Assembly (NCBI RefSeq): GCF_014646075.1
Contig: NZ_BMMT01000001.1
Location: forward strand, 583,930-647,929
Source of the DNA: Saccharopolyspora thermophila
GTDB taxonomy: Bacteria; Actinomycetota; Actinomycetes; Mycobacteriales; Pseudonocardiaceae
Direction: 5' to 3'
Length of the DNA stretch: 64,000 nt
The notes under the pieces: model-generated
What the model was told of the DNA's origin: nothing
What the model saw: the letters and a program-made list of their open reading frames with translations, nothing else
The model's database searches: none
Position numbers and translations under genes: made by a program
Shown here: positions 34,492 through 50,814 of the stretch, piece by piece
Position numbering within the stretch: the first letter of the stretch is position 1
Layout of the letters: the number at the start of each line of letters is the position of its first letter

Positions 34492-34524
34492 GGTCTCGGC
34501 TGTGGTCTCGCGCGGGGCGAGACA
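34420..34524. repeat. CGAGACC/GGTCTCG iteron array 1
   Basis: Within 105 bases there are ten copies of CGAGAC(C/T/A) or its complement: direct at 34420, 34432, 34443 and 34518; inverted at 34453, 34459, 34472, 34481, 34492 and 34504. Spacing is mostly 11-13 bases. This is an iteron-like protein-binding array, with orientation switching in its middle. Confidence 0.75.
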
Positions 34525-34575
34525 CGGGGCGGGTCGACCAGAGAGCACAGACGACCGTGTCGCGTTGTCAAGGAG

Positions 34576-35937
34576 TCAGGCGGGACGCCGCCACCGCTGC
34601 CACGGTTGCCGCGTGGGCGTCCTATGGCTGGTGGTGTCCTCGTCGAGATCGGGGTCGGTGAGCACGATGTCGCCGACGTCGAGCCCGCGCCGGTTGGCCT
34701 CGCGCATCTCGTCGGTGACGCCGTCGAGGTAGGCGCCCTCGTCGTCATCGTCATCGTCGAGCGGTGACGGCGGGCGTGTGGCCAACTCGGCGAGCACCCT
34801 GGGAGTGCCGTCGTCCGTGGTGCCGCCGATCACGGTGGGCAGCTCGCCCAATCGCACCCGCCGGGCTTGCTCGGGCACGGCGGTGACCACGGACCACACC
34901 TCGCCCGCCGGGCCGTCTAGGTGGCCGTGCTCGCGGGACGCGGTCGCCACGGGGACGGGGGAATGCTTGGCCTGCAAGGCTTTTCGCAAGCCCTGTTCGC
35001 GGCGGGCGCTGGTGGTCCAGATCAGCACCATGCCCGCCAATCGCCGCGCCACATCGAAACGGTCGGTGTAGGGCTTGCCGGAGCCGGTGTAGCGGTCGAT
35101 CTTGTCCGCGACACGGCGCAGGGGGTCGGTGCCGGTGTCGTGTTCCAGGAAGAACCCCAGCCAGCGGCCGTTTTCGTGCCAGCAGCCGTAGCCGTCCGGG
35201 GTGATCTTGTTGCAGTAGAACTCGGTAATCGACTCCTCGGAGCGCCACGTGTGCAGACCCTCGCGGCCGAAATCCCGCTCATCGGCGGCGAACCCGCCGA
35301 GCCCGGCACGGCGGGAGTAGTCGGCCAGCTCAGCGAAGAACTGAGTCACCCCCAACAAGTGGCCCAGCCTGGGCGATTCGAGGATGCGGCGCAGCCGATC
35401 CGCGTGCGTGGACGGACGCGGCGGACTCGTGCCGTCCTGGGCGGCGCGCAGCTCCGCGCCGCGATAGCCCAGCAGGTAGTGAAACGGCTTCGAGCCACCG
35501 TCAGCGCGATACGGCTGCGTGCGCCACAACACGCCCAAATCAGCCAAGTGCAGCAAGCGATGCTGTGCCCGCGACATCGACGGAAACACCAACGCGCGAA
35601 GCTGCTCCGTGGTCAAAACATGATGTTCAGCAACCAGTTCCAGCACCAGACGATCCCGAGGCGTCAGCTTCGCCCACAGCGCCCCGTCCGGCTCTCCGCC
35701 CGCCGCCCTGCGGCGGCGCCCCCGCGCGGCAGACGTGAACTGAGACTGATTGCGACCAATCAGTCGGACACCCGCGCCGCGCGCCTTGTCCCCGCCCCGA
35801 CCTGCGGAGTTAGGAACAACACCCCCTGCGGATGCCCCTGCGGCCCTGGGACGCACCGCACCCGTCGTCCCATCCGCAGCCCCACCCGCCGCGCCAGCCG
35901 CGCGGGCGTGAGCCTCCTTGTGTCTGCGGTCAGCCAT
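34576..35937 (-). CDS. Replication-relaxation family protein
   Basis: A 453-residue protein of the replication-relaxation (Replic_Relax) family, found on actinomycete plasmids and integrative elements and thought to act in replication or mobilisation. An Ala/Gly/Arg-rich N-terminus (about 1-90) is followed by a winged helix (LTPRDRLVLELVAEHHVLTTEQL), the core with GRWLGFFLEHDTGTDPLRR, and an acidic C-terminus (DDDDDDEG). ATG 35937 (MADRRHKEAHARA) is the start. It ends about 50 bases right of iteron array 1, which would be a natural binding site. Confidence 0.85.
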   Translation of the reverse strand: MADRRHKEAHARAAGAAGGAADGTTGAVRPRAAGASAGGVVPNSAGRGGDKARGAGVRLIGRNQSQFTSAARGRRRRAAGGEPDGALWAKLTPRDRLVLELVAEHHVLTTEQLRALVFPSMSRAQHRLLHLADLGVLWRTQPYRADGGSKPFHYLLGYRGAELRAAQDGTSPPRPSTHADRLRRILESPRLGHLLGVTQFFAELADYSRRAGLGGFAADERDFGREGLHTWRSEESITEFYCNKITPDGYGCWHENGRWLGFFLEHDTGTDPLRRVADKIDRYTGSGKPYTDRFDVARRLAGMVLIWTTSARREQGLRKALQAKHSPVPVATASREHGHLDGPAGEVWSVVTAVPEQARRVRLGELPTVIGGTTDDGTPRVLAELATRPPSPLDDDDDDEGAYLDGVTDEMREANRRGLDVGDIVLTDPDLDEDTTSHRTPTRQPWQRWRRPA

Positions 35938-36422
35938 CGACACCACCCCTCGGTCAAAGGAACCCTGGACGCCCCTGAAGTCCGGAAAAACGGCCCTCAT
36001 GGGACGCGATCAAGAAAAATGTGACCAACGACACACTTCAGGGTTGGTGGTGTGGTGGCTGCCGGTCGCCCGTCGCCAACGCGCGAGCATGATCACCGGC
36101 CTCCTCCAGTGTGCCAAGAACCCAAGCACTACAGGAGAGGCAATTGACGGCCCGATTTTGGACACCAACACCCGCACGTTCACGCGCACGGAGCAGCGCA
36201 GCTCGTTAGGCACGCCGGTGCCGGTCGATCTGCGGCTACGGGTGGAAGTGAGCCCGGTGCACCCGCGTCGGGTGGGGCTCCGGGCCTCGCGTTACTCGCG
36301 ACTCTCCCACCTCGCCCGGCCCGAGGGATAGTTATTCCCAAGGAAGTTGGGCGACGAGCATTCCGCCCTTGCAGGGGCGTGACCAGCGATGTTGTTCCGC
36401 TGTGGGCGGCAGGTCGCGTGGT
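35938..36422. other. Gene-poor stretch right of the replication-relaxation gene
   Basis: 485 bases. Open frames exist on both strands (for example 36010-36213 minus), but none has convincing protein character; a GGAGAGG followed by TTG at about 36143 opens only 21 codons. It probably holds the promoter of the replication-relaxation gene. I see no strong repeat. Confidence 0.4.
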
Positions 36423-36854
36423 TCAGCCGTTCCAGCCGTGCCAGAAGGGCGTGCGGTCCTCCCCAGCGGCGACGAGGGCGTTCTTCAGCGCGCCGGGCCG
36501 GACGTCGGTGTCGGCGAGTTGGTCAAGAGGCAACCAGTGAAACTCCAGGTGGTCTTCCTGGCTGACCGGCTCTGCGGCGTCGATGGACACCTCGAAGACG
36601 AGGTTGATTTCGTGGTGGGTCACGCCGTCCTCGATGTAGCCGTGTTCGACAGCCCCGACGAAGCCCGCGATCTTGGCGTCGGTGCCGAGTTCTTCGGCGA
36701 GTTCGCGCACGAGGGCGACTTCCACCCGCTCACCCGGTTCGACGTGGCCGCCGGGCAGAAACGACCAGGACTTGGTGCGCTGACGCACCAGGAGAAGTTG
36801 ACCACCGCGGCGGATGACGGCCCTGGCGATGATCTCGGTGGTCGCGGCGCTCAT
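36423..36854 (-). CDS. Nudix hydrolase
   Basis: A 143-residue Nudix hydrolase with a complete Nudix box at residues 34-56 (GGHVEPGERVEVALVREL then EEL), acting on a nucleoside diphosphate derivative that cannot be predicted. It is the first cargo gene right of the replication gene and is divergent from the phosphotransferase gene with a 42-base gap, so the two probably share a promoter region. Confidence 0.9.
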   Translation of the reverse strand: MSAATTEIIARAVIRRGGQLLLVRQRTKSWSFLPGGHVEPGERVEVALVRELAEELGTDAKIAGFVGAVEHGYIEDGVTHHEINLVFEVSIDAAEPVSQEDHLEFHWLPLDQLADTDVRPGALKNALVAAGEDRTPFWHGWNG

Positions 36855-36896
36855 GCGTGCCTTTCCTGTCGGTCGCTGCCTCTAGGGTTGCGTATC

Positions 36897-37874
36897 GTGG
36901 CGATCTCGGAGCTTACCGTTGAGGATGTCGCAGCGGGTGTGGCGGAGGTGTTGCCGGAAGCCGCTCCGGTTCGCCCCGTTCGTGCCCTTCGCCGTGGCCG
37001 AAGCCATGTGTCGTGGGTGCTGGAGTCGCCGCGCGGCCGGCTGGTCGGCAAGGTGCTGCTTGGCTGTCCGCGCGACGGGTTCATGGAACGGCTCGCCGAG
37101 CATCGGCGGGTCTGGGAGCACGGCGTTCTCGTCCCTCCTGTGCTGGCCTTCACTGACTCCTGCCCTGCCGTGGGTGGGCAACCGCTGACGGTGTTCGAGT
37201 ACCTGCCGGGCGTGGATGCCGAAGAAGCGTTGCCCTCGGTGGATGCCGATAGGGCGCTTGCGTTGATGCGCGATACCGGAGCGGCGCTGGCTCGGCTGCA
37301 TCAGGTTCCGGTCGGTGGCTTCGGTGATGCTGTCGGCGGGCTTGGTGTGGGTCCTGCCTCGTGGGGTGCGGTGGTCGCGGGGCGAGCCGCGTGGCTGCGT
37401 GACGCCTATCGGAGTCTGGACGAGGCACCGTTGGCGTTGGTTGAGGCCGGAATTGGCTTGCTGTGCCGGTTGGCCGACGACGTGTCGCCAAACGTGCGCC
37501 CAGCCGTGGCGCACTTGGACGTGTACTTGCCGAACATCCTGGTGGATGACAAGGGCCGGTTCCGAATTTTGCTCGATCTTGAGCATGTCCGGTGGGTCGA
37601 TCCGGTCATGGATTTCGTCAAGCCAGCTATGTGGATGTTCGCCGAACGACCAGCATGGGCCGATGCCTTCGCCGATGGTTACCGGTCGGCCGGTACGTGG
37701 CCGGAACGCTGGTCAGAGCGGCTGTCCGTCGCGACGGGATTGGAACTGTTGACCGGCGTGCAGTACTGGATACGGGTTGCTGATCATGAAATGCGAGAGG
37801 ACTACCTGCGTCGGCTACGGGCATGGGTCCGCTCGGACGGTGCCGCTCACGTCTGGGCGTCGATCAGGCCATGA
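36897..37874 (+). CDS. APH-family phosphotransferase
   Basis: A 325-residue aminoglycoside/choline-kinase-like protein. The catalytic loop is HLDVYLPNIL (Asp near residue 205, metal-binding Asn) and the second metal motif is LLDLEHVRW. Drug-resistance APH enzymes and small-molecule kinases share this fold; nothing here tells which. GTG 36897 begins the protein-like sequence (AISELTVEDVAAG). Its 3' end overlaps the convergent P-loop kinase gene by 11 bases. Proximity to the glycosyltransferase operon may mean it phosphorylates a sugar. Confidence 0.85.
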   Translation: MAISELTVEDVAAGVAEVLPEAAPVRPVRALRRGRSHVSWVLESPRGRLVGKVLLGCPRDGFMERLAEHRRVWEHGVLVPPVLAFTDSCPAVGGQPLTVFEYLPGVDAEEALPSVDADRALALMRDTGAALARLHQVPVGGFGDAVGGLGVGPASWGAVVAGRAAWLRDAYRSLDEAPLALVEAGIGLLCRLADDVSPNVRPAVAHLDVYLPNILVDDKGRFRILLDLEHVRWVDPVMDFVKPAMWMFAERPAWADAFADGYRSAGTWPERWSERLSVATGLELLTGVQYWIRVADHEMREDYLRRLRAWVRSDGAAHVWASIRP

Positions 37875-38511
37875 GCAGGTCGGCGACTCGGCAGGCGTAG
37901 GCGTCCCAGTCCTGTTTGGCCGTGTCGATGACGCACAGTGGCAAGGGCGAGGTCCTTGCCCAGGCCATCAAGTCGTCTTGCGCACACCTGATGTGCTCGG
38001 CTCGCGCGGCATCGGTGGTGCCGAAGCCTTCCAAGTAGCGTGCCCATTTCGCTCCACGTTGCAAGCGCGTGGATTCCACGCATTGAGCGCGGATGCGGTG
38101 ATCAGGGACGCGCAGGAGCACCAGGTGCAGGCCGAGAGCGCTAAGGCGCTGTTCAAGGTCCCGGAGAACCGCGCGGTCCAGCGGTAGCCCGTACATCGGG
38201 GCGTCAAAGCCGAGCCCTTCCAGCACGCAGGTCGGTGTCCACGCGGCCGCGAAACGATGACGGGGCAGGGTACTGGCGTGAAATCGTCGGTCGATCTCTT
38301 CGAGGAAGGCTGTCAAGGCTTCCAGCCACGACAGGATGTTGGCCGCGTGCTCGTGTTGCTGGCCGGGTGTGTAGGTGCGGGTGGTGATGGTCGCCGCTTG
38401 CGGCATCGTGATCAGTGTTTGGCATCCGTCCTTGACGAGCCGCGCGACGGTGCGCTGATAGACCGAGGTTTTTCCCGCGCCCCAGACTCCGGCCAGCACG
38501 CATCCCCTCAC
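37864..38511 (-). CDS. P-loop kinase-like ATPase
   Basis: A 215-residue P-loop protein. The Walker A GVWGAGKTS at residues 8-16, just after a short beta strand, and the general length resemble deoxynucleoside or thymidylate kinases, with a lid-like region near RLQRGAKWARYLEGF. The substrate is unknown. Its ATG overlaps the upstream stop by four bases, and it is the last gene of a five-gene overlapping operon (epimerase, GT4, HprK-like kinase). Confidence 0.8.
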   Translation of the reverse strand: MRGCVLAGVWGAGKTSVYQRTVARLVKDGCQTLITMPQAATITTRTYTPGQQHEHAANILSWLEALTAFLEEIDRRFHASTLPRHRFAAAWTPTCVLEGLGFDAPMYGLPLDRAVLRDLEQRLSALGLHLVLLRVPDHRIRAQCVESTRLQRGAKWARYLEGFGTTDAARAEHIRCAQDDLMAWARTSPLPLCVIDTAKQDWDAYACRVADLLMA

Positions 38512-39554
38512 CGCTGCGTCCCGTGATAAGCCGCTGCGGCCACGTCCGGTAACTCGCTCGGATCGGTCCAGGCCAGCGCGAGAACCGGCATCGTCTCGGC
38601 AAGGCGGAGCCAGAACTCACTATCCCTAGCGGAAACTTCGGCGTTTCGGGCGAGGAGGGGACGCAGGTTAAGCCAGTCTTCCGCGAAGAAGTCTTCCACG
38701 CTGAAGTCGAGATGCTGCTGGACGAATCCGCTATCCGGGTTCATTACGGGTGTCGAGGGCGAGCGCGTGAGGATCACGATCCGCTGTATCTCGGTAATTG
38801 GCAGCGTCGGGCGGCCTACCAGCCGGGAGACTTCCCACGGTGTGAGTTCGATTTTGCCGTCGACGAGGTGTCGTCCCCGGACGGGCTCGAAGTCGGTGAG
38901 GGCGTTGGCCAGGGTGGGAGAGCCGCCGATGCCCTCTGGGGTGAAGCGCCACGCCAGCGGAACGCCGATGGCATGCCATTGGCGACCACGCCTCGGGATG
39001 AGCACGGCGCGGTCGTTGGCGACTGGGTGCGCGCCGTGGTCTTCGATGAGGTGTGTCAGCACGGTGGTTTTGCCTGAACCGGGATGCCCACCGATGAGCA
39101 CGCCGTGGCCGTCGATGTCGACCGCTGCGGCGTGCACGCAGCGACCTGCCTGGATTTCGCCTCCACGCATGAGGAGTTGCCGCACCACGCGAGTGCCGAT
39201 GCTGGCCGCCACCCTGGGCTGTTCGGCGGCGATGACCAACAGATCAGGAGTCGCGGTGATCACGTGGTCCGGCGCGTATTCGGGAAGCAGGACTTCGTGC
39301 CCCTCGGTGATCCAGGCTCGATAGCGCTGATCAGGGTGGCTGGTGCGCAGGGCGGTGGCGGGCTGGTCGGCCAGTGATCTCCGGGCGTCGGCGACAGCAG
39401 CCGAGTCGCAGCTGATCGACACCGTGATGTCCGGCTCGCCGTCCAGGGTGGGCACGAGGAACGGGCTCACGTAGTGACGCATCGCCTCGTGGACCGGTTC
39501 GGGCGCGACGACGGAGCAGGTGCAGGGGCCGAGGTTGAGGAGTCGAGTGCTCAT
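38508..39554 (-). CDS. HprK-like kinase
   Basis: A 348-residue protein with an HPr-kinase-type C-terminal domain. The P-loop GGHPGSGKTT (155-164) is preceded by VHAAAVDIDGHGVLI, the arrangement seen in HprK-like kinases of RiPP and polysaccharide clusters. The DRAVLIPR and GIPLAWRF-like segments also fit. Related enzymes phosphorylate a Ser or a sugar-like acceptor. ATG 39554 overlaps the upstream glycosyltransferase stop (ATGA). No HPr or obvious precursor peptide is nearby. Confidence 0.82.
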   Translation of the reverse strand: MSTRLLNLGPCTCSVVAPEPVHEAMRHYVSPFLVPTLDGEPDITVSISCDSAAVADARRSLADQPATALRTSHPDQRYRAWITEGHEVLLPEYAPDHVITATPDLLVIAAEQPRVAASIGTRVVRQLLMRGGEIQAGRCVHAAAVDIDGHGVLIGGHPGSGKTTVLTHLIEDHGAHPVANDRAVLIPRRGRQWHAIGVPLAWRFTPEGIGGSPTLANALTDFEPVRGRHLVDGKIELTPWEVSRLVGRPTLPITEIQRIVILTRSPSTPVMNPDSGFVQQHLDFSVEDFFAEDWLNLRPLLARNAEVSARDSEFWLRLAETMPVLALAWTDPSELPDVAAAAYHGTQR

Positions 39555-40822
39555 CGGCGTCCTTCCGCTGCGGTTCCGGTTGTCTGTCGCCGGAGCCAAC
39601 GGGGTTGTCCGGGCCGAGTGGTTTGCGGGTCCCCGAGGGCGTCTTGATCGGCGTGTTCGATCAGCCAACGGGGCACGCCCGCGCAGTGGTTGTCGATGGC
39701 AGGGCTCGGCCCCGGTGGCAGCGTGGTGAGCCAGGCTCGACCCTGCCGCACCAGATCAGCGCCGATACGTTGCCAGGACAACTCCCCCTCGACGCAGCGG
39801 CGGCCGGCTCGGCCGATCTCGCTGAGAGCGGTGGGATCGCGCATCAGCGCGGCGATCCGGGCAGGCCACTGGCTGAGAGCGTCCTCCACGACCACACCGG
39901 GATGGTTGGGCGGTAGTCCGGTCACGGCTTCGCTAGTGCCCAGGACAGGCAGTCCGGCGGCGAGATAGTCCAGGACCTTCATCTTCGCGCCCGACCCGGC
40001 TGTGAGCGGGGCGAGAGCCAGCGTCGTCCCTCGAAGACCGTCGTTGATCGTATCCACGCGGCCAGTGAACTCGATTCCGCTGCCATCGTGGGTCAGTTCG
40101 GCAGGCCCGCGGCCGATGACCCGGACCCGAACATCGAGATCGTCAGCATGGAGCGCGGGAAGGATCGTACTGCGGATCGCGTCGACCGCTCGGGCGTTGG
40201 GCTGATAGTAGAGGTTGCCGAGAAACACCAGCGTCGCGGCGTTGGCATCCGGCCCCCAACAGTGGCGCTGCTGCGGGTCCGCGCCATTGGGCAGCAAGGC
40301 TGTTCGGACGCTCGGCACGCCTGTGGTGGCCGCCATCGTGGTCTCGTTGCGGGTCGAGACGATCACATTGTCGGCTGTGCGCAGCGCGACACGCTGTATC
40401 GTCGCGTGGCCCTCGACGGTCTCCGCAGGTTCGCCCAGGCTGGCCGCGACGGCGGCATCATCATCGTGCACGTCGTAAACGAGCCGCGCATCAAGCAGTC
40501 GGGCCAGGTCACGCCCGATTGACACCAGCGATTCGGCCTCGCACAGAACAACAAAGTCCACCGTGGCGAGGTCGAGCAGTCCGGCAAGCGCGTTGGGGGT
40601 GTAAAAGTCGTTCGGGTGCACCAACGCGAGATCGAACGGCCAGTCGGCTGCGGTTCCGTAGTCCGCGCCTCTATCACACAGCACCATCGTGACGGCGGCA
40701 CCCGCTCGATGGCTGTGTTCGGCGAGCGCCAAGGTTCGGGCGGGTGTGCCCGCCAAGGCTTGACCGCGCCACACATTCGGCGTGTCCAGCAAAAAGACAA
40801 GGCTTGGAACCGTAATGCTCAC
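39551..40822 (-). CDS. Family 4 glycosyltransferase
   Basis: A 423-residue GT-B glycosyltransferase. The C-terminal donor domain has LVFLGNLYYQPN, VRVIGRGP and the GSGAKMKVLDYLAAGLP stretch with a following Thr-Ser-Glu, typical of the GT4 family, which uses nucleotide sugars with retention. The N-terminal acceptor domain shows a DVHDDDAAVAASLG segment. The stop overlaps the next gene and its own ATG overlaps the epimerase stop. The upstream epimerase could make its donor sugar. Confidence 0.9.
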   Translation of the reverse strand: MSITVPSLVFLLDTPNVWRGQALAGTPARTLALAEHSHRAGAAVTMVLCDRGADYGTAADWPFDLALVHPNDFYTPNALAGLLDLATVDFVVLCEAESLVSIGRDLARLLDARLVYDVHDDDAAVAASLGEPAETVEGHATIQRVALRTADNVIVSTRNETTMAATTGVPSVRTALLPNGADPQQRHCWGPDANAATLVFLGNLYYQPNARAVDAIRSTILPALHADDLDVRVRVIGRGPAELTHDGSGIEFTGRVDTINDGLRGTTLALAPLTAGSGAKMKVLDYLAAGLPVLGTSEAVTGLPPNHPGVVVEDALSQWPARIAALMRDPTALSEIGRAGRRCVEGELSWQRIGADLVRQGRAWLTTLPPGPSPAIDNHCAGVPRWLIEHADQDALGDPQTTRPGQPRWLRRQTTGTAAEGRR

Positions 40823-41805
40823 GATGCCTTTCCCTCCGGCTCGTCGATACCCGTGCGCAGATCAGCCGTGATCGCGTGTTGGATGCCCTCATGCAACGAC
40901 GTGCGCGGCCACCACGGCACGATCTCGCGCAAGCGGTTCGCATTGGCGCACGACACCGGCCGTGAGCGGCGACGGAGCCGGGTCGAGTCCACCCGTGTTT
41001 CCAGGTGTCGGCCGGTCAGGCTGGCAACCAGGTCCACCAGTTCACGACCAGACACCGGAGTCCCCGCGCCGACGTTGACGACAGCCGGCTCAGCCCTGCG
41101 CAGCAAGACGACCAATGCCTCAGCAACGTCATCGACGTAAACGAAGTCACGTGCCTCGTCGAGGTCCCCGAGATGCAGAACCCGTCCGCGTCGCGCCTGC
41201 CGCAGAATCTCGGGCAGCAGGTGGGGATGTGGATCGCCAGGACCGTACACATTGAACAGCCGCGCTACCACGGATTCGCAGTGGCCAAGCCGGTGGGCCT
41301 GATCGCACACCAACCGTTCGCCCAGCAGTTTGGACCAGCCGTACGCGCCCTGCGGTCCCACGCGATCGTCCTCGCCATGCGGGCTCTCGCTCGGCGCGTA
41401 CACGTCAGCAGTCGACGCGAACAGCAGCCGTTGCGGCGGACGGACGGCGCAGGCATCCAACACGTTCTGTGTGCCCATGACGTTGATGTCCAAGGTTTCG
41501 GCGGGCGATGTCTCGCAGTCAGGGATGAAGTGCCGTGCGGCCAGATGCATCACACCCCACGGACGTGCGGTCATCATCAGTCGAATGAACTCAGCACGAT
41601 GGCGAATATCGAGGACCCGAACGCGTACCTCGGCGCTGTCGGCGAATTCGTCCAGCCGGTGCAGGGTTCCGGCGCTGCCGTCGTCTACTGCCACGACACG
41701 AAAGCCCTGGGCGCGAAGGCATCTCACCACGGGCACGCCGATGAGACCGGCGGCCCCGGTGACGAGCACGGTGCGAGGCGTCTTGTCACTGGTCGTCGAG
41801 AGCAT
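40819..41805 (-). CDS. NAD-dependent sugar epimerase/dehydratase (extended SDR)
   Basis: A 328-residue extended short-chain dehydrogenase. The NAD motif GAAGLIG lies near residue 17, the catalytic pair YGWSK (Tyr-x3-Lys) and the Ser/Thr in FASTADVY are present, and RLFNVYGPGDP is the sugar-nucleotide signature. It probably converts a nucleotide hexose for the following glycosyltransferase. AAAGGA precedes ATG 41805. The 5' end lies within the end of the membrane-protein gene (20-base overlap). Confidence 0.92.
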   Translation of the reverse strand: MLSTTSDKTPRTVLVTGAAGLIGVPVVRCLRAQGFRVVAVDDGSAGTLHRLDEFADSAEVRVRVLDIRHRAEFIRLMMTARPWGVMHLAARHFIPDCETSPAETLDINVMGTQNVLDACAVRPPQRLLFASTADVYAPSESPHGEDDRVGPQGAYGWSKLLGERLVCDQAHRLGHCESVVARLFNVYGPGDPHPHLLPEILRQARRGRVLHLGDLDEARDFVYVDDVAEALVVLLRRAEPAVVNVGAGTPVSGRELVDLVASLTGRHLETRVDSTRLRRRSRPVSCANANRLREIVPWWPRTSLHEGIQHAITADLRTGIDEPEGKAS

Positions 41806-42301
41806 GGCGTCCTTTCGGCGGGTGGGCGCGTACGTCGTCACGCCCCGGTCCCTGTGGTCGTCGATCTTGTCGTAACTGGGGAGATTGCTGCGAATACTTA
41901 TCGTGTTCTGGGTCGTCGGAGCTGCCGATTTCCAGCGCCTCCAGACCTGCCCGCGTGACCGCGCTCGGGAGGGTGGGGGTGTCATCGGCGAGGACCAGCC
42001 GTGGCATCACCGAGGTGGACAGAAGGTCTTGGACATACGGCCGTACGGGGGTGACTTCCTCCACCGGCTCGTCCGGGTGGACGGTGGGCCAGCCCGGCGT
42101 GTCGTCCGGTTCGGAAAGGTGGTGCTTACCCATCGCTGTCCGCACGGGCTCAGCGGTTTCCGAGGGTAGGTAGAACCGGGCGAAGCGTGCAGCGGCCTTG
42201 GCCGCGCGGACCTCTTTGCGCCAGGCCGACCAGGACCACCACGCGATCCACAGCAGCAACGCCGCGAGGGGTGTCAGCGCAAGGCATGCCCAGCCGTTCA
42301 C
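41786..42301 (-). CDS. Single-pass membrane protein
   Basis: A 171-residue protein with one N-terminal TM (about residues 4-24, LALTPLAALLLWIAWW) and a hydrophilic, Pro/Asp-rich cytosolic tail. It has no recognised domain. It is the first gene of the overlapping operon with the epimerase. It may anchor the pathway at the membrane or belong to the element backbone. Confidence 0.6.
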   Translation of the reverse strand: MNGWACLALTPLAALLLWIAWWSWSAWRKEVRAAKAAARFARFYLPSETAEPVRTAMGKHHLSEPDDTPGWPTVHPDEPVEEVTPVRPYVQDLLSTSVMPRLVLADDTPTLPSAVTRAGLEALEIGSSDDPEHDKYSQQSPQLRQDRRPQGPGRDDVRAHPPKGRHALDDQ

Positions 42302-42333
42302 GGCACATCACGTCGAGACCGCGAGCACGCACG

Positions 42334-42824
42334 TCAGATGTCGCGCACGCGGTTCGATTCCGCCCGTTGCCCGGTGTCGGAGCCACCGGAGGATTCCGCG
42401 CTTGCGTCACACTCGGGAGGCGGCTTCGGGCGAACGACCAGCAACCGTGCGCCGGTTGCCCGGAGACGATGCGTGAGCGCGTCAGCAATCGTCGCGTCCG
42501 ACGCCAGGTGCGCGGCGCTGATGGTGACCGCCGCAAACGAATCTGGCAGCCGCACAATCCGGAAAGCCCTGGGCGGGTCACCACGTCGCCCGCGATGCCG
42601 TAGTCGACGAACACCCCACACAGCCGCAGCCGCTCTTGCCAGCAGAACCGCTCCAGCACTCTTCGGCAGGCACGGACATACCGGGCACGACGATGGCTTG
42701 AACGGATGTAGCCATACACCACGGGACGTCCGGTGGGCACCGATCGGAAGATCGGCGGCGTCGACAACAGGCGCTCCAACTCCCCGATACGTTGATCCAA
42801 CGGCCCATAGCTGAACTCGTTCAT
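42334..42824 (-). pseudogene. Resolvase-like gene with a -1 frameshift
   Basis: The 5' part (MNEFSYGPLDQRIGELERLL, then VVYGYIRSSHRRARYVRACRRVL and CGVFVDYGIAGDVVTRPG) resembles a serine-resolvase N-terminal fold without an obvious intact active site. Near 42565-42583 the frame must shift by -1 to continue as FRIVRLPDSFAAVTISAAHL to the end at 42334; without it, translation runs into non-protein sequence. A lost base in or near the CCCAGGG run explains this. Confidence 0.65.
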
Positions 42825-42828
42825 GGCT

Positions 42829-43038
42829 TCAGAACCCCTCCCGAAGCCGACAGGCCAGCCGCACTTGCGAACACGGCCACGGCTTGCCGCATTGGTCGCA
42901 ATGGGTGTCCGGTCTCGCACCACCGGGCCGATGCAGCAGTAGCGCCAAGCAGATCAGCTCGTAGAGCAATACCGGTTCCGGCACGGCGCGGCGCTCACCG
43001 GTGCTCGGCTCCGGCGTGACCGCCAGAAGAGTTGCCAT
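42829..43038 (-). CDS. Small zinc-knuckle hypothetical protein
   Basis: A 69-residue protein ending CDQCGKPWPCSQVRLAC, with four Cys in a zinc-finger-like spacing, after a helical LLYELICLALLL stretch. This type occurs in clusters of small ORFs beside XRE regulators in actinomycete elements. ATG 43038 is used; a longer reading from 43173 is possible but less protein-like. It lies 4 bases before the resolvase-like pseudogene, so the two form a unit. Confidence 0.55.
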   Translation of the reverse strand: MATLLAVTPEPSTGERRAVPEPVLLYELICLALLLHRPGGARPDTHCDQCGKPWPCSQVRLACRLREGF

Positions 43039-43262
43039 GTCCAGCCACCCACTCCCGTCTCTTGCGTTCGCGGTCTTGGGCGGCACCTGGCGTTGGGGCG
43101 GGGAGCCACCGAGCGCTACTTGATCGGGGTTGCGCTCGATGTGCCCGGTCGGGGGTCGGGCGTTTCCCAACACCAGGTGCCTTGACGATCAGGGAACCGG
43201 GTGGGTCCGGATGTGCGTCACGATGTGCGTGCAACAGCCACACCGGCAGCCACCAGCCGTTA

Positions 43263-43279
43263 TGCTGATCTAGTCAGCA
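43263..43279. promoter_or_regulatory. Inverted repeat upstream of the XRE regulator
   Basis: TGCTGA (43263-43268), five bases, TCAGCA (43274-43279), about 30 bases before the XRE gene start and overlapping a TATGCT that could be its -10. This is a plausible autoregulatory operator. Confidence 0.5.
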
Positions 43280-43309
43280 CCCCCATGGACACTCGGAAGA
43301 GTGATCGAC

Positions 43310-44620
43310 ATGGCCCGCGAACCCGAGACCATCGCCCAGCAGCGTCGCGCCCTGGGCGAACAGCTCGCCGCGTTCCGGCAGGCCGCCGACCTGACCCAAA
43401 GGCAACTGGCCAAGGCCGCGTTCTGCGACCGCACGACGGTGACCCACATCGAGAAGGGACGCGCCCGCGCCGACGAACGGTTCTGGCAAGCGTGCGACGA
43501 CGCGGTAGGGGCAGACGGCGTGCTACTGGCGGCCTTCCACGACCTGGTAGCTGCCAAACAAGCCCACGATCAGCAGGAACAGCAAACACGACTCGCGCAG
43601 GCCCGAGCGCGCGCCAAATCGCTGAGCACGAACGGGCACGCCGCTCCCGCGCCTGCGTCACCAATGATCGACACTGTGGGACTGGTCGATCCCCCCACGC
43701 CTTCCGTCCGGCTCGACAGCGGTTACGTCGAAACGCTGCGTAGCCGCATCGGCGAGCTTGTTGACCTCGATATCCAGTTCGGCGGCGACCAGTCCTCCGG
43801 GGTCGCCCTCCAGCTCTTCCGCTCGGTTCACCGCAAACTCGGGGCCAGCCAGTGCGACCCCAGCATCGAACGCGACCTGTACGCCGCAGCCGGCGAACTC
43901 GGCGAAGTCACGGGGTGGCTGCTCTACGACGCGGGCAAACACGATCTCGTGCGCCGCATCAACCACGAAGCCCTGCACCTGTCCCGCTTGGCCGGGGACC
44001 ACAGCATGGAGCTGCTGATCTTGCAGAACATGGCCATGCACGCCGGTCACCTCGGCCGTCCCGTGGAAGCCCTGCGCATCGCGCGCATGGTGCTGGAAAC
44101 CAACACGCTCTCGCCCCGGCTGGAAGCCCTCTTTCGGACCCGCGAAGCCCGCGCACTGGCGCTGGCAGGTGACGAGACCACGGCCGAACGCACGTTCCGC
44201 CAAGCCCACTCCCTGTACCTGGACGGTGTACGCGACGACGACCCGGCATGGGCCTGGTGGATCAACGACCAAGAGTTGGCCTGGCACGAAGCCATGATCC
44301 AGGCGGACTCGGCCGACTGGAACCAGGCGGCCGACACCTTCCAAGCCTCCATCGAGGTCACCCCAGGCCGTGAAGTGCGACGCCGCTACAACCACCTCGC
44401 CTCCCTGCTCAACGCGCAGATTCGTGCGCAAGCGTGGCGGGACGCAGACCAAACGATCGAGCGCGTCATGCCTTACGTCGACGAGGTCGGCTCAACCCGA
44501 ACCGCAACCACCCTCTTGGGCGCGCTCGATCAGCTCGACGTCACCCACGCCAAGCCCTCAGTCCGCGACGCAGCCTGCCAGCTCCGGAGCATCCTGGTCG
44601 ACGCCGGATACGGGCACTAA
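43310..44620 (+). CDS. XRE regulator with TPR-like C-terminal domain
   Basis: A 436-residue regulator. An N-terminal HTH_XRE (about residues 10-65, ALGEQLAAFRQAADLTQRQLA and TVTHIEKGRARADE) is followed by a linker and a long helical repeat region (about 120-430) of TPR type. Actinomycete regulators of this build often control small adjacent loci and respond to a ligand. ATG 43310 lies ten bases after GGAAG; GTG 43301 is too close. It is divergent from the small minus-strand ORFs and convergent with the methyltransferase gene. Confidence 0.88.
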   Translation: MAREPETIAQQRRALGEQLAAFRQAADLTQRQLAKAAFCDRTTVTHIEKGRARADERFWQACDDAVGADGVLLAAFHDLVAAKQAHDQQEQQTRLAQARARAKSLSTNGHAAPAPASPMIDTVGLVDPPTPSVRLDSGYVETLRSRIGELVDLDIQFGGDQSSGVALQLFRSVHRKLGASQCDPSIERDLYAAAGELGEVTGWLLYDAGKHDLVRRINHEALHLSRLAGDHSMELLILQNMAMHAGHLGRPVEALRIARMVLETNTLSPRLEALFRTREARALALAGDETTAERTFRQAHSLYLDGVRDDDPAWAWWINDQELAWHEAMIQADSADWNQAADTFQASIEVTPGREVRRRYNHLASLLNAQIRAQAWRDADQTIERVMPYVDEVGSTRTATTLLGALDQLDVTHAKPSVRDAACQLRSILVDAGYGH

Positions 44621-45519
44621 CCCGCGCCGACCACAGCCCGAGCGATGTTGCCGATATCAGCCGGGCGCACTCGGCAACACCCGCCCACGATCCGTGCACC
44701 GTCAGCCACCCACTGCCGGGCTTGCACTGCGGAATACCGCGACGGTCCCAGCCACGTCCGGCGCTGCGCATCCCAGCCCTCGCCGCTGTTCGGATAGACG
44801 ATCACCGGCTTCCCGGTCACTTCACGTGCCGTGGCGATCGCGGCTGGCACGTCGGACGGGGCACAACAGTTGACGCCCACTGCCACAACCTCCGGCACAT
44901 CTCTGGCGAGCGCGAACGCCTCCGCCATCGGTTGCCCGGCGCGCGTGCGATTCCCGTCGATGTTGTATGTCAGCCACGCAGGAATGCCGATCCCGGAAAC
45001 CACGATCATCAACGCTTCCGCCTCGTCGATGTCCGGCACCGTCTCCAGCGCCAGCACATCCGGCCCCGCGTCCGCCAGCACCTCCAGGTGGGGACGGTGC
45101 CATGCCGCCAACTCAGCCACGCTCAACCCGTAGCGGCCCCGATACTCCGACCCATCGGCCAAGGCTGCACCATACGGGCCGAGCGAGGCCGCCACCCACC
45201 GCTCACGCCCGTCATCGGCCATCTCAGCGCGGGCAGCCTGCGCCAGCTCGACGCTGCGCCGCAACAACCGACCAGCGTCATCCCGCCCGATGCCCCGCTC
45301 CGCGAAGCCATCGAAGGATGCCTGGTAGCTCGCCGTCGTCGCGATCACGGCGCCCGCGCGGAAGAACGCCAGGTGAGCGGCCTTGATCTCCTCGGGAGCG
45401 TCCACCAACAACCGCGCCGACCACAAAGGGTCCGAGAGATCATGCCCGCGCGCCTCAAGCTCGGTCGCCAAACCACCATCCGTGATCAGAGGAGCGCCGT
45501 TCGTTTCGAGGAAGCCCAC
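44617..45519 (-). CDS. mmuM: Homocysteine S-methyltransferase
   Basis: A 300-residue zinc-dependent homocysteine methyltransferase, probably using S-methylmethionine or SAM to make methionine. The zinc Cys ligands are in VGVNCCAP and IVGGCCRV, and the domain opens with the family LITDGGLATELEARG. Length is normal. It overlaps the 3' end of the XRE gene by four bases on the opposite strand. As element cargo it may recycle homocysteine, but the chromosomal need is not clear. Confidence 0.9.
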   Translation of the reverse strand: MGFLETNGAPLITDGGLATELEARGHDLSDPLWSARLLVDAPEEIKAAHLAFFRAGAVIATTASYQASFDGFAERGIGRDDAGRLLRRSVELAQAARAEMADDGRERWVAASLGPYGAALADGSEYRGRYGLSVAELAAWHRPHLEVLADAGPDVLALETVPDIDEAEALMIVVSGIGIPAWLTYNIDGNRTRAGQPMAEAFALARDVPEVVAVGVNCCAPSDVPAAIATAREVTGKPVIVYPNSGEGWDAQRRTWLGPSRYSAVQARQWVADGARIVGGCCRVRPADIGNIARAVVGAG

Positions 45520-45560
45520 AAGGTCACTCTAAGCCCCGATCGCCTTCCTCTCGTCCCGCG

Positions 45561-46255
45561 TCAGCGCAGCCCCACCGGATATCGTCCCTCGCCCTTCCAA
45601 CGCCGCAGGATTCGGCGGCCATAGTTGTTCGTTCCGGCGATCCGGTCCAGCTCCGCGCCGGTCGGCGTGCGGCCCTTGGTCCACTCGGTCTGGTAGTAGG
45701 CCCACATCCGTTGTTCCGCTGTCGGCTGGGTCTGCTGGCGGGACTGGCCCGAGACCAGCGAGAGCCTTACCGGCCGTTCGGTCCCGTCGCCGGTCTCGGT
45801 GGTCTCGTTTCGGGTCTCGTTGGTGGTCTCGGCGTGGCGGCGCTTGAGCGCGCGGTTCAGCAGCTCGACCGACAGCAGCAATGCCAGCGGCGGGCAGGCG
45901 GCAACCGCGACCGCCAGCACACTCAGCTCCGGCGCGGCGGCCACGTTGGCGCAGAGCGAGAGGGAGACCCCGAACAGGAACAACAGCCACGCCGACCACT
46001 GACCGCCGCCGCGCCTGCGTGCGTGGTGTCCGGTCTTCCACAGCTCCACCGTGGCTGTCATCAACATGCCGTCCACGATCAGCGGCCAGATCGCCGCTGT
46101 GATCTCGTCCGCGCCGAACCGCACGCGAACTCCCGGCCGTGCCGGTACGAGGCATAGGCAGCGCCCAGCGCAACCAACGCGGTGCAGGCGCACCGCAACC
46201 ACAGCGCCCGATCCCCGCGAGGAGTCTGGGCGTTCGACTCGGTGGCGGCGGTCAT
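45561..46255 (-). pseudogene. DUF2637 membrane protein with a -1 frameshift
   Basis: The 5' part (MTAATESNAQTPRGDRALWL, then one TM and ASYRHGREFA) and the 3' part (VRFGADEITAAIWPLIVDGMLM onward, three more TMs and a Glu-Thr linker) together form a DUF2637 protein, typical of actinomycete integrative plasmids. The join near 46122-46132 needs a -1 shift, explained by one lost G (TTCGCGTGCGG against TTCGCGGTGCGG). The C-terminal part is a helical DNA-binding-like tail. Iteron array 2 lies inside its linker. Confidence 0.75.
45792..45831. repeat. GGTCTCG iteron array 2
   Basis: Four direct copies of GGTCTCG at 45792, 45801, 45813 and 45825 within 40 bases, and one CGAGACC at 45750. The heptamer is the same as in array 1, 11.3 kb away. 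In the coding frame it reads Glu-Thr repeats. Confidence 0.75.
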
Positions 46256-46476
46256 CGGCGACCACCGCCCGCACGGCGACCCATCGTCGTCGGGTCGACT
46301 CCGGCCAGCTCGGCGCAGCGGTCGATGCGGACGAACACCTGTGAGCCGGTCATCGACCGGCCGACAGGAACGGACACGGAGCCACGAGTGAGTAGGTAGT
46401 CCAGTCCACAGATGACGCAGGCCAGCCCATCGGCCTGGGCGTCGGTCAGTCCGGTGATGATCTCTTCGCGGTTCAC
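46252..46476 (-). CDS. Small hypothetical protein upstream of the DUF2637 gene
   Basis: A 74-residue protein. A CVICG pair lies near residue 20, in ADGLACVICGLDYLLTRGS, and the C-terminal part has a short helix CAELAGVDPTTM. The ATG overlaps the stop of the frame above and its stop overlaps the DUF2637 ATG (ATGA), so the two are coupled. Small ORFs of this type commonly precede DUF2637 in these elements. The function is unknown. Confidence 0.65.
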   Translation of the reverse strand: MNREEIITGLTDAQADGLACVICGLDYLLTRGSVSVPVGRSMTGSQVFVRIDRCAELAGVDPTTMGRRAGGGRR

Positions 46477-46580
46477 TGGGCACCACCGCCCGAGAACACG
46501 CGACGAGTACCCACCGGCTTGATCCTGATCTCAGGGCCTTCCGCCGTTAGGGTGTTCGTGTTCTGAAGCGTTAGGCCCAC
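46473..46580 (-). CDS. Possible 35-codon ORF
   Basis: A possible short ORF from GTG 46580 (LTLQNTNTLTAEGPEIRIKP) whose stop overlaps the next ATG by four bases. That overlap is the main support; there is no good ribosome site. Confidence 0.3.
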   Translation of the reverse strand: MGLTLQNTNTLTAEGPEIRIKPVGTRRVFSGGGAQ

Positions 46581-46587
46581 GTCGATC

Positions 46588-46615
46588 GAAGCGCCCCGCT
46601 CAGGCGGGGCGCTTC
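46588..46615 (-). terminator. 12-bp hairpin downstream of the ATPase gene
   Basis: GAAGCGCCCCGC (46588-46599) and its complement (46604-46615) with a four-base loop. It lies 154 bases past the stop of the minus-strand ATPase gene and before the DUF2637 unit, separating the two. Confidence 0.65.
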
Positions 46616-46768
46616 GCCTTGGCTCGTTCCGGATCACTCTGGCGCCGGCCGATCCCCCATGCCCCCACGGCACGGTGGTTGCTCGTCGGGGGAATGCTCC
46701 TCGCCCGGAAGCCGTTCCCAGCCTGGGTGGAGCTGACGCGAAGGACTCCCAGGTTCAGGCATCCGTGG

Positions 46769-49501
46769 TTACCCGCGCCAGAGAACCTTGGCCCTACGTT
46801 CGCTGCCGAAGCCCAAACCGTGTCGATAGATTTCCGCTACCCAGTAGCGACCGTCCTTTCCGCGAGCGAAAACGCCGGATTTAACAAGAAAATCAGCTTC
46901 GTCTGCGGAAAGATTGACATCTTCCAGTCTGAAGGGAACGTTTACCGTAACGTGCTGAAGCCTGGCCAGGAGGCTGCCAACTTGTGGATTCTCCTGCCGG
47001 ATCGAATCGATCTTGTTCTTACTGCATTCGAGCAGTGCTTTACGCATAGCAGTCGGTGCGAGTACGCGGTCGTCCCAGGAGGGATACTCGACGGAAAGGC
47101 GGGAGGATTCTTTCAGGAACACGACGACATCTCGAGCCTGAACCTGGTCATTGAAATCGCCGAGTGCTGCCGGAACCCAAAGGTGTGATCGGGCCTCCTT
47201 GGATCGCTCTGTGCCCATTTTCCAGCCCCACACCGGAATAAGTTTGTCAACAAGTTCACTATAAGGCATCTCAACAATCTGCGACAAAGGCGGGGGTGCT
47301 GGGTGTGCGTGCGCGTAGACCGTTACCCATAGCGCCAAGCGTAGTGCTTCTTCCTGGTTCCACCGCAAGGCGTAGGGCTCATAGCGGGCGAGGAGCTGGC
47401 CACTGTTCTGCGATACCGCCTCGGTCACCAGATCCCATCGGACGAAAACCACCAAACCAAATGGGCGTCCCCGAAGGGAACGAAGCCAGGTGAGCACGTC
47501 TGTCAGTAGTACGCGCAGGGCCGTCCGCTTGGGGGAGGTGTCCATGGACTGCAGAAGGTCCTCGAGTCCGTCTATGACGAACACGGCCTGTGCGCGCTTG
47601 CCAAGTTCGGTCAGTGCGGCCTCCGCCCGACCATCGCCCGAAGTAGGTACCCCCGCCGCAGCGGCCAGGCACTCAAGCCAGAGGCGTCGCCAACCGAGTT
47701 CGTCACTCCCGTCGAGGGACACGAAGCCGTGCTTCAACTTGTCCCTGATCGCCTGGCTGGTATCTGCCTTGGCGCCTTCCCCGCTGTGCTTCGCTGCGAA
47801 CGCGTCTCGCAGGTCTTGCGGGGTCAGTTCGTGGTATTTGAGGTTGTCCGACTCCAGGACGGGGACAATGGGCAGATCTTGCTTGACACCGTCGATGCCG
47901 GACAGCGACGCGAACTGCCGCCAGGTGCGGGCGGCGCACGCCTTCGAATACAAGAAAGTCTTACCGGCACCCTTCGCGCCAACGACCAGAGACAGCGGAG
48001 GCTCCGTGCGATGGTCGCCCAATAGTCTGCGTAGCGGGTCGGTCACCAGGAAACCGCTGGCAGATGTCAGTCCCATCTCCTCGGCGTAAATAAACTCGCC
48101 AGCAGTCTTGGCCAGTTGTCGGCGAAGTGGCTCGTAGTCGATCGTCTCCGCGTGTTTTTCAATGGTTGCAGAACCCGTCGGGATTGGCGTCGGTACGATT
48201 GACTCTATTGCTGCGGACAGTTGACAAGTGTCCAGAACGCGCAGAACTCCGTCCCATGTCGACGGAAGCGCCAGCATTTCCTCCCGAAAAGGACTGAGCA
48301 CGGGGCGGGAAAGGATGTCTGAGTCCACGCCACTGCCGGACTCCGTATTCCGTCCTCCTGCTGGTGGCTGCAGCGCGGCAAGGAGTGCGGCGCTGAGGGA
48401 ATCGGATGCTGATTGCGCCTGAGCCGCGTGCACATCCTGCCGGTACTGCGTAATGATCACGGAACTGGCTGGGTCCGTACCCTGCACGGCGGGCGCTTGG
48501 CGACCTAGTTGACGTATCAACGTCTCGGTACCGGCGAGCGACTGATGACTCAGGGTCGTGACGAACACCCGCTGTACCCGGGGATCGAGGAGAACGGGGG
48601 CGGACAGCTCCGATGCTCCGGCGCGGAGATCAATCACAACGGTGTCTGCGTCCATGCGCGTCGCCAGAGCCGCGAGCGCCTCGGTGAGAAAATAGGGCGA
48701 GCGGCCGGGCGTAAGAAGATCTGCTGGTTCGATTCTTGGCGGAGTGAGAAAGGGCCTCCTTGTTGCGGGAACCACGGTCAGGCGCCCGCCGCCGGGGTGA
48801 TGACCAACCTGCTGGTTCGGCAGATAAGCAGCGGCGATATCCACGGCCGCTGCCCAATCGCCGTCTTCGCCGCCCTGCAGGAGAGCAAGAAAGTCTTCGT
48901 AGCTAAAGTCGAGTTGGCCACCTTGGGCCTTGTGCATCCATGTGATACCAGGTGCTTCCAGGTCAGCATCGATAAGCAACACGTTGCCGCCGCGCCGGGC
49001 AATAACGTCGGCCATCGCGACTGCATGAACTGTGCGCCCGACGCCGCCCTTGAAGGAGTGAAACGCTATTATCTCGACGTTCCCGGGGAGGCGGTCGCTG
49101 ACGGGACGATCAAACGGGTCCGCCAGTTCTCGCGTTATGTGCTTTTCGCGAAGCAGCGGTATGCGGCGTGCTGTCGGCTCATTCTCCGGATCGGGAACCA
49201 GCACAACCGGAATTCCGGTGAAATCTCTCGTGCGCGGGTCATCAAGGCCGAGCATGAGCTGATCGCCATCGAATTCCGTCGAGCCGGCTCCAAAAACCTC
49301 GTCGAGCCATTCCCGTACCTGTCTCGTGTCGGTGCCGGAAGCAACGACGAGTTCCAGGTTGTCCCACCAGCTGTCTGCGGCGATCAACCAACGCGGCCAC
49401 GCACCGGTGGACGCAAGGAGTGCCAGATGCTCGTCAATGTCAACCCAGGTGAACAGGTGCTCCGGAGGTGGAGGCGTCTTCGTCTCGGTCGGCTCAGCCA
49501 C
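46769..49501 (-). CDS. Double P-loop KGGVGR/AAA ATPase of a candidate defence pair
   Basis: A 910-residue protein. After an N-terminal domain of about 140 residues comes a ParA/MinD-like domain with the variant P-loop KGGVGRT (151-157) and DADLEAPG. A second P-loop GAKGAGKT (about 505-512) starts an AAA/STAND-like ATPase with Walker B VFVIDGLEDLL near 640 and a helical C-terminus. KGGVGR-type ATPases are known from actinobacterial conflict and FxSxx-type loci. The HEPN-like gene ends 13 bases upstream, forming a sensor/effector-like pair. Confidence 0.82.
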   Translation of the reverse strand: MAEPTETKTPPPPEHLFTWVDIDEHLALLASTGAWPRWLIAADSWWDNLELVVASGTDTRQVREWLDEVFGAGSTEFDGDQLMLGLDDPRTRDFTGIPVVLVPDPENEPTARRIPLLREKHITRELADPFDRPVSDRLPGNVEIIAFHSFKGGVGRTVHAVAMADVIARRGGNVLLIDADLEAPGITWMHKAQGGQLDFSYEDFLALLQGGEDGDWAAAVDIAAAYLPNQQVGHHPGGGRLTVVPATRRPFLTPPRIEPADLLTPGRSPYFLTEALAALATRMDADTVVIDLRAGASELSAPVLLDPRVQRVFVTTLSHQSLAGTETLIRQLGRQAPAVQGTDPASSVIITQYRQDVHAAQAQSASDSLSAALLAALQPPAGGRNTESGSGVDSDILSRPVLSPFREEMLALPSTWDGVLRVLDTCQLSAAIESIVPTPIPTGSATIEKHAETIDYEPLRRQLAKTAGEFIYAEEMGLTSASGFLVTDPLRRLLGDHRTEPPLSLVVGAKGAGKTFLYSKACAARTWRQFASLSGIDGVKQDLPIVPVLESDNLKYHELTPQDLRDAFAAKHSGEGAKADTSQAIRDKLKHGFVSLDGSDELGWRRLWLECLAAAAGVPTSGDGRAEAALTELGKRAQAVFVIDGLEDLLQSMDTSPKRTALRVLLTDVLTWLRSLRGRPFGLVVFVRWDLVTEAVSQNSGQLLARYEPYALRWNQEEALRLALWVTVYAHAHPAPPPLSQIVEMPYSELVDKLIPVWGWKMGTERSKEARSHLWVPAALGDFNDQVQARDVVVFLKESSRLSVEYPSWDDRVLAPTAMRKALLECSKNKIDSIRQENPQVGSLLARLQHVTVNVPFRLEDVNLSADEADFLVKSGVFARGKDGRYWVAEIYRHGLGFGSERRAKVLWRG

Positions 49502-49514
49502 GGTGTTGTACCCC

Positions 49515-49940
49515 TCAGTCCTGCTCGCACCATGAGATCAGGGCGCGGAGCGCTGCATCTGCCTCTTTCTCGTCTGCGGCGTCGAGCTTTGCACCATAGC
49601 GCCATGCTTGGTGCAACTCCGCCACGTCGACGGTGTTGCGTCGAGACCGGTGCAATCGGCACCGCTGAAGCCGTTCAAGGTGCTTCGAAACCATCCGTGG
49701 CAGTCGAAGATCCTTTGCCAGCTTCCGGAGATCGTGTGTGTTCTCCAAGGCCGAGGTATCGCTGTGGCCGCCACGATCCAGTAGTCGCTCCTTCAGACCG
49801 CACTCGGCAGCGTAAAACAAGAGCAAACAGACAGTGGCTGCGTCTCTGGTGCCGTGCACCCGGTCTGCGCTGGCCCGCAGTTGGTCTCGTCGTGATCGCA
49901 GCGGCTTCTTCCCCACATGAAGCACCATGGCGGTGATCAT
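49515..49940 (-). CDS. HEPN-like protein, candidate effector
   Basis: A 141-residue helical protein. It has the look of HEPN domains: YAAECGLKERLL in one helix, then HDLRKLAKDL, then an AWRYGAKL segment. A RMVSKH at residues 82-87 fits the R-phi-x3-H RNase motif, although a single match of that length may be chance. HEPN RNases are common toxic effectors of defence systems. ATG 49940 is the start (an internal ATG at codon 5 is also possible). The ATPase gene follows after 13 bases, probably as one operon. Confidence 0.6.
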   Translation of the reverse strand: MITAMVLHVGKKPLRSRRDQLRASADRVHGTRDAATVCLLLFYAAECGLKERLLDRGGHSDTSALENTHDLRKLAKDLRLPRMVSKHLERLQRCRLHRSRRNTVDVAELHQAWRYGAKLDAADEKEADAALRALISWCEQD

Positions 49941-49950
49941 GTCAGCTCAC

Positions 49951-49967
49951 CGTGACATCTGGTCACG
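49951..49967. promoter_or_regulatory. Inverted repeat before the HEPN-like gene
   Basis: CGTGAC, five bases, GTCACG (49951-49967), ten bases upstream of the HEPN-like ATG. The position suits an operator or a repressor site for the pair. Confidence 0.45.
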
Positions 49968-50048
49968 TAATCACACTGGTCTCTGCAGACTCCACCCGTT
50001 CTTACCAGCGGCGGTAGCTGTACATGCCCCGGAGCAGCGCCGAATGTT

Positions 50049-50092
50049 CGCCGGCGAAGCCCTGCGCGCCTACGAGCAGGGCTTCGCCGGCG
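50049..50092 (-). terminator. 16-bp hairpin at the chromosomal boundary
   Basis: CGCCGGCGAAGCCCTG (50049-50064) pairs perfectly with its complement (50077-50092) around a 12-base loop, 20 bases past the stop of the minus-strand membrane protein gene. It is the probable terminator of that gene. Confidence 0.7.
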
Positions 50093-50112
50093 CCGAGTGG
50101 TGTCCGTTGCCG

Positions 50113-50814
50113 CTATGCCGGGCTGGGCTCGGTGACCCGTGGGGTGGTTCGGCGGCGGGAGATCAGGCGGGTGGTCAGGACGAGGAGTTGGCAGAGCGGG
50201 GAGGGGAAGCCCAGGGCGATGCCCATCGCAATGTCGACCACGGGCGCCGCGACCGCGGCGACGAACACCCCGGTCGGTGCGGTCGGCGGCTTCGCCGGCT
50301 TGGCCCACGGGGTGCGGCGCCACGGCTTGGCCACCGACAGCCATGCCTGGAAGGCGATGGCCGAGGCCATCAGGGCGGTGCCCACCAGTTGTGGCAGTGG
50401 TGGGGTCGGCAGTCCCGCCCGTGCCGCCTCGCCGGCGGCCTCCAGAGCGTCGGAGAGGATGAAGATGCCCGCGTAGAGCTGGACCACGGTGATCGCGAAC
50501 TTCGCCACCACCCACCAGTTGCGCAGGATTCCCCAGGCAGTGGACGCGCCCAGCATGATTCCGGTGAACGCCGCGGCGTTCGCGAACGGCGCCAGCAGGT
50601 GCATGTCCACCACGTGCGCCATGGAGGTCGCGCTGATCCGCACGGTCTGGTCGTCGCTGCCATAACTCACCGTGAGAAGCGCGAACAGCACGAGCGCGAA
50701 CGCCATCCAGCCCACCGAGGTGAGCACGTGTAACCACACGACTGCCTGTCGCCAGCGTTGCGATGTTCCTTTGGCCACCTGCACAGCCTGCGGCCGGCGG
50801 TCGCCGCCGCACAT
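50113..50814 (-). CDS. Multi-pass membrane protein
   Basis: A 233-residue integral membrane protein with about five hydrophobic segments (VVWLHVLTSVGWMAFALVLF at the start, then HLLAPFANAAAFTGIML, WVVAKFAITVVQLYAGIF and two more). It resembles DUF2269-type proteins, but I am not sure. GTG 50778 is an alternative start, dropping the Gly/Arg-rich opening. No partner is evident. Confidence 0.7.
   Translation of the reverse strand: MCGGDRRPQAVQVAKGTSQRWRQAVVWLHVLTSVGWMAFALVLFALLTVSYGSDDQTVRISATSMAHVVDMHLLAPFANAAAFTGIMLGASTAWGILRNWWVVAKFAITVVQLYAGIFILSDALEAAGEAARAGLPTPPLPQLVGTALMASAIAFQAWLSVAKPWRRTPWAKPAKPPTAPTGVFVAAVAAPVVDIAMGIALGFPSPLCQLLVLTTRLISRRRTTPRVTEPSPA

Follow-up and report, generated by a model that had tools for sequence, protein, structure and literature searches.

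A conserved HEPN-fold protein and double P-loop ATPase pair in Saccharopolyspora thermophila, best filed as a divergent fused variant of the candidate system PDC-M28

Introduction

The closest described counterpart of the gene pair reported here is PDC-M28, a computer-predicted candidate in the PADLOC collection. PDC candidates stem from a guilt-by-embedding screen, and most still await validation (PMC12988326); two others showed no activity when tested (PMC12409345). PDC-M28 comprises a small HEPN protein (A), a KGGVGR ATPase (B) and an Sll1717-like ATPase (C), a three-gene layout that we deduced from the model names and from two plasmid loci (L052 and L053). The pair under study lies on the minus strand of a 64,000-nucleotide stretch of the S. 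thermophila genome (contig NZ_BMMT01000001.1, positions 583,930 to 647,929; hereafter the window). It has the same three parts in the same order, but B and C form one polypeptide, the A protein falls below the A model, and the host is an actinobacterium. Judged by its sequence, it is best filed as a divergent fused (A + BC) variant of the PDC-M28 candidate. A literature search found no paper on PDC-M28, KGGVGR or Sll1717, and none on this pair among the papers listed.

To our knowledge, no double ATPase partner has been described for AbiV or AF0298-type HEPN proteins. MAE_18760-type HEPN proteins resemble the present pair in lying beside a SIMIBI-class ATPase, in an operon with a ParA/Soj ATPase; they differ in that their Rx4-6H motif is conserved, and no second fused ATPase is named in the passage on them (PMC3710099). 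Rousset et al. 2022 (PMC9122126) define the int–psu interval of P4 and the gpA–gpQ interval of P2 as antiviral hotspots. Not all the systems that they cloned were protective: of the sets taken from P4-type elements 7 of 19 were, and of those taken from P2-type phages, old-tin apart, 3 of 8. Sections 8 and 10 of that paper do not describe the HEPN–ATPase pair; as set out below, fused pairs related to it occupy both sites.

Results and Discussion

The pair is a conserved, horizontally spread cassette

A sequence-only reading of the window had proposed that a small helical protein and a large ATPase, encoded 13 bases apart, form a defence pair. Both open reading frames (ORFs) were borne out (Table 1), with 13 bases between the stop codon of the small gene and the ATPase start. 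The conserved start of the small gene is probably base 49928 (MVLHVG, with the ATG kept in homologues) rather than 49940, and residue numbers below refer to the shorter form. The ATPase was used to search contigs, an approach limited to close relatives, and 15 loci were recovered, from Streptomyces, Actinomadura, Actinacidiphila and Nocardia. The small gene lies just upstream of the ATPase gene at all of them and in four other genomes of the family that match the small protein. The suggested coupling thus held at 19 of 19 first relatives, and it extends to distant bacteria. Prevalence is low and scattered: among genomes of the family, 5 of 297 matched the small protein, and among those of the phylum, 2 of 396, the genome of origin being counted in each. 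One copy (L012) has a stop codon within the small gene. Both genes look to be under purifying selection, since comparison with seven homologues gave a ratio of nonsynonymous to synonymous substitution rates (dN/dS) of 0.09-0.25 in six cases; dS was not computable for the seventh (L013).

A relative of the ATPase is present in 11 of 5426 complete Escherichia coli genomes. Ten loci were opened (the eleventh, H12, shares its strain name and coordinates with H11), and in all ten the small gene and the ATPase gene are flanked by psu on one side and, on the other, by a P4-type integrase next to tRNA-Leu. An IS21-family insertion lies ahead of psu in one of them (L027). In strain 2018-01-1CC (L028:11665-14336) the ATPase coding sequence is broken into two annotated ORFs, of which the second bears the name KGGVGR ATPase; the HEPN gene is full-length. 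A P2-like phage contig (L021) has genes for a small protein of 158 residues and an ATPase of 895 residues, lying between the portal (phrog_68) and gpA (phrog_91) genes. This was the one full-length locus among four recovered from viral contigs with the ATPase profile, the others (L022–L024) being partial; the same contigs gave no match to the small protein, and further scans with the L021 and E. coli queries returned only L021's contig or nothing. Among named phage records, the ATPase found one match, a partial one in Microcystis phage Mic1 where no clear pair was seen, and the small protein found none. Fused pairs also occur on Pantoea and Nostoc plasmids. In trees built for each ATPase part from 15 rows, the actinobacterial, P2 and P4 copies group together with support of 100/99 in both; deeper splits are unsure and rest on very long branches. 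The pair is a real, conserved and horizontally spread two-gene cassette with a HEPN-fold partner.

Because the two genes co-occur in distant bacteria and lie in known hotspots of phage defence, the pair is probably an anti-virus system. This genomic context argues that the cassette is probably anti-phage, and defence against mobile genetic elements (MGEs) in the wider sense is likely. The surroundings of the actinobacterial copies gave no clear sign of defence islands or of enrichment. The survey covered 84 neighbouring proteins of 190 residues or more, encoded within 4 kb of 16 of the 20 loci (all except L011, L014, L017 and L043). These proteins matched only mad2, mad3 and mad8 at 1e-10, with at most six proteins involved, in a comparison made without a random control.

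Fused and split forms of PDC-M28

Plasmids of Skermanella and Calothrix carry three separate genes, for an annotated HEPN protein followed by proteins of 445 + 508 or 464 + 503 residues. Both loci match PDC-M28 A (7.5e-25, 5.6e-14), B (6.4e-95, 2e-59) and C (1.5e-120, 1.4e-81). This split form is that of L052 and L053; in the window B and C are fused. Of the fused plasmid pairs, that of Nostoc matches all three models and that of Pantoea matches B and C, not A. The window ATPase gives weak matches to B (E 2.7e-15) and C (E 1.3e-8, best stretch residues 759-863), each with partial coverage. The A model gave no match at E 1 to the window small protein and none to the E. coli and Pantoea proteins, and it matched L021 at 0.0033 and L051 at 2.4e-10. 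Profiles of the small proteins and of their Nostoc and split-type counterparts, compared with hhalign (alignment A3 against A7), gave E 0.0006 with a probability of 28%. Among the relatives scanned, the cut-off of the Sll1717 family NF047389 (75) is passed by L051 (130.7) and L053 (95.9), and not by L021, L027, L050 or L052.

The split Calothrix locus (L053:1-9939) may belong to a defence island, with nearby genes for a type III restriction subunit, an AAA ATPase and a DUF450 protein. The nearest listed upstream gene at the Nostoc locus is hsdR.

The small protein has a predicted HEPN fold and a putative alternative active site

The predicted structure of the small protein matched HEPN domains best, in agreement with the proposed layout; sequence searches of the PDB found no plausible relative. 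The active site suggested by the sequence-only reading, R82–H87, is present in the window protein but can be ruled out, as the arginine is kept in 14 of 15 rows of alignment A2 (window included) and the histidine in 2. No other conserved copy of the canonical Rx4-6H motif was seen in the small-protein alignments. The proposal of a defence pair is partly supported: the fold, the pairing and the hotspots speak for it, and the suggested site does not hold.

Other residues are strongly conserved (Table 1) in a 12-sequence alignment (A5) that counts the window protein. The Ex3[KR] motif occurs in many HEPN families (Anantharaman et al. 2013, PMC3710099). AF0298-type and AbiV HEPN proteins typically lack the motif histidine, keep the arginine and have another conserved histidine N-terminal to it, a possible alternative active site (PMC3710099). 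In sequence, the Ex3K, H65 and R110 of the small protein fit this pattern.

The most credible alternative keeps a defence role and makes the HEPN protein a non-catalytic sensor or adaptor that binds RNA or nucleotides, the response falling to the ATPase or to its N-terminal 140 residues. A conserved Rx4-6H is indeed not seen, nucleotidyltransferase-fused HEPN domains that have wholly or partly lost that motif are potential substrate-binding domains (PMC3710099), and the 140 residues have no Pfam or NCBIfam match. Set against this are the near-invariance of E42, C43, K46, H65 and R110 among proteins 16-59% identical to that of the window, and the title of PDB entry 9bj6, which calls AbiV an RNase even though AbiV typically lacks the motif histidine. 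We consider a non-catalytic HEPN protein possible and somewhat doubtful. In a second alternative the pair is a toxin-antitoxin system, a HEPN RNase toxin restrained by the ATPase, with defence a by-product or absent; this we regard as unlikely. The alternatives overlap with the core claim and with each other.

The large protein carries two dissimilar P-loops

As the sequence-only reading had recognised, a KGGVGRT MinD-like domain is fused to a second P-loop ATPase. The second P-loop reads GAKGAGKT (Table 1). In the KGGxGK motif the MinD-type signature lysine comes first and the catalytic P-loop lysine last. In the window ATPase the signature lysine is kept, arginine stands at the position of the catalytic lysine, and the second P-loop is intact. 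SFKGGVGRT, GxKGxGKT and DGLEDLLQ are invariant or nearly so in an alignment of 16 ATPases, and K151, G152, G153, G155, R156, G508, K510, G511, G513, K514 and D644 are invariant in nine very diverse fused proteins. A PDB sequence search with the ATPase gave matches confined to the region of the first P-loop. We call the second ATPase "STAND-like" on account of a weak NACHT match, below cut-off, at residues 635–671 and of the DGLED motif; the label is provisional.

The first P-loop bears on the least probable alternative, that the pair is a partition or maintenance system in which a ParA/MinD-like ATPase aids segregation of the element with the small protein as adaptor. ParA-like matches (to phrog_164 and to several ParA models) were obtained, and a ParB gene lies about 2.2 kb downstream of the Pantoea plasmid pair. 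A putative partition system occupies the P2 hotspot in about a quarter of P2-like phages (PMC9122126), which urges caution. We nevertheless find partition quite improbable: the catalytic-lysine P-loop of partition ATPases (KGGxGK) is replaced by one with arginine in 9 of 9 diverse fused proteins, the partner is a HEPN-fold protein rather than ParB, a second ATPase is fused on, and chromosomal copies have core genes as neighbours, such as that of Nocardia harenae (L018), which adjoins ribosomal-protein genes (recognised by eye from ORF starts).

A proposed mechanism

The reading that we favour, with fair confidence, is a fused PDC-M28-type anti-MGE cassette in which the HEPN protein is the working partner. 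The pair would be a compact two-gene innate-immunity cassette whose large protein serves as a nucleotide-driven sensor and switch. The MinD-like KGGVGR domain probably binds nucleotide and dimerises, and would hydrolyse poorly because its P-loop lysine is arginine; the STAND-like ATPase, with its intact P-loop, would supply the motion. The trigger may be invading DNA or a phage product; once it is sensed, the large protein would license the small HEPN protein, and the activated HEPN protein would stop translation or growth. We lean towards this protein being the effector. Its activity would most likely be that of a metal-independent RNase, with E42/K46, H65 and R110/Y111 forming an alternative site of the AF0298/AbiV type; the chances that it is an active RNase are about even. 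Sensing, activation, RNase activity, protection and the trigger are all inferred.

PDC-M28, of which we found no test, thereby gains a short clonable form (about 3.1 kb), a predicted fold and a testable putative active site. The candidate family was known and the fused architecture is new; E. coli P4 offers an experimental entry, related pairs having their natural setting in P4 satellites of this model host and in a P2-like phage. A bolder proposition, which we put forward tentatively, is a new defence class in which a fused MinD-like/STAND-like double ATPase, its first P-loop lysine changed to arginine, senses infection and releases a HEPN RNase with a non-canonical E/K-H-R site, as one two-gene unit ranging from enterobacterial phages and satellites to soil actinomycetes. 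The cassette itself would represent a defence use of a MinD-type ATPase with an altered P-loop and a further HEPN domain with a displaced active site.

Features and setting of the pair in the window

Table 1. Coordinates of the gene pair, its motifs and its surroundings in the window
Feature	Position	Strand	Basis or remark
Small HEPN-fold protein	49515..49928	-	137 residues from conserved start; 141 with ATG at 49940
E42-C-G-L-K46 (Ex3K) of HEPN protein	49791..49805	-	E, C, K identical in 12/12 aligned sequences
H65 (HDL motif) of HEPN protein	49734..49736	-	11/12 aligned sequences
R110-Y111 (WRYG) of HEPN protein	49596..49601	-	each in 11/12 aligned sequences
Double P-loop ATPase, 910 residues, GTG start	46769..49501	-	ORF
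KGGVGR-motif (MinD/ParA-like) ATPase domain, residues 142-332	48506..49078	-	NCBIfam NF047398 168.5 bits, cut-off 90
KGGVGRT deviant Walker A, P-loop Lys to Arg	49031..49051	-	K, G, G, G, R invariant in nine diverse fused proteins
Second Walker A GAKGAGKT, residues 508-515, ahead of Sll1717-like best stretch	47957..47980	-	alignments
Sll1717/STAND-like P-loop ATPase region, best stretch residues 627-840	46982..47623	-	NF047389 41.7 bits, below cut-off 75; PDC-M28C 1.3e-8
Walker B-like VFVIDGLED, residues 640-648	47558..47584	-	D644 invariant
Perfect 13-bp inverted repeat, terminator-like	46587..46616		downstream (3') of ATPase gene
Variable region between ssrA and conserved core genes; pair at far end	32079..50160		same-genus comparison

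The pair has a GC content of 0.606 and the window one of 0.694. The small protein is present as a single copy in its genome, and the window ATPase is the one protein there above the KGGVGR-family cut-off. The pair had been credited with its own terminator and an upstream inverted repeat. As to the former, a terminator-like 13-bp repeat follows the ATPase gene (Table 1). The latter, a 20-bp inverted repeat at 50049-50092, lies just past the 3' end of the neighbouring core gene (50113-50814, minus strand) and so probably serves as the terminator of that gene rather than as an operator for the pair; it is also near the junction of core and variable DNA. Rfam models gave no match at the gathering threshold in 45000–51500.

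The variable region begins after ssrA, which ends at 32078, and matches resume at 50161-50922 in four of the six same-genus genomes fetched. In the remaining two, ssrA was the only part of the fetched stretch to match the window. It holds genes for a serine recombinase, a replication-relaxation protein, a NUDIX protein and a DUF2637 protein. The pair had been placed at the edge of an integrated element. It does lie at the edge of the variable region, but its membership in one element with these genes is not borne out by a second attachment (att) copy: no 14-mer is common to 31600–32300 and 33500–51000, and a search allowing up to three mismatches found no further 3' end of the transfer-messenger RNA (tmRNA) between 33276 and 57658. 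The pair may be part of the variable-region element or a separate insertion. In G217, sequence 84% identical to the serine-recombinase region of the window is found together with a copy of the tmRNA 3' end, at a distance of about 27 kb from ssrA; both lie beyond sequence matching window positions 57222-60857 and 63722-64000.
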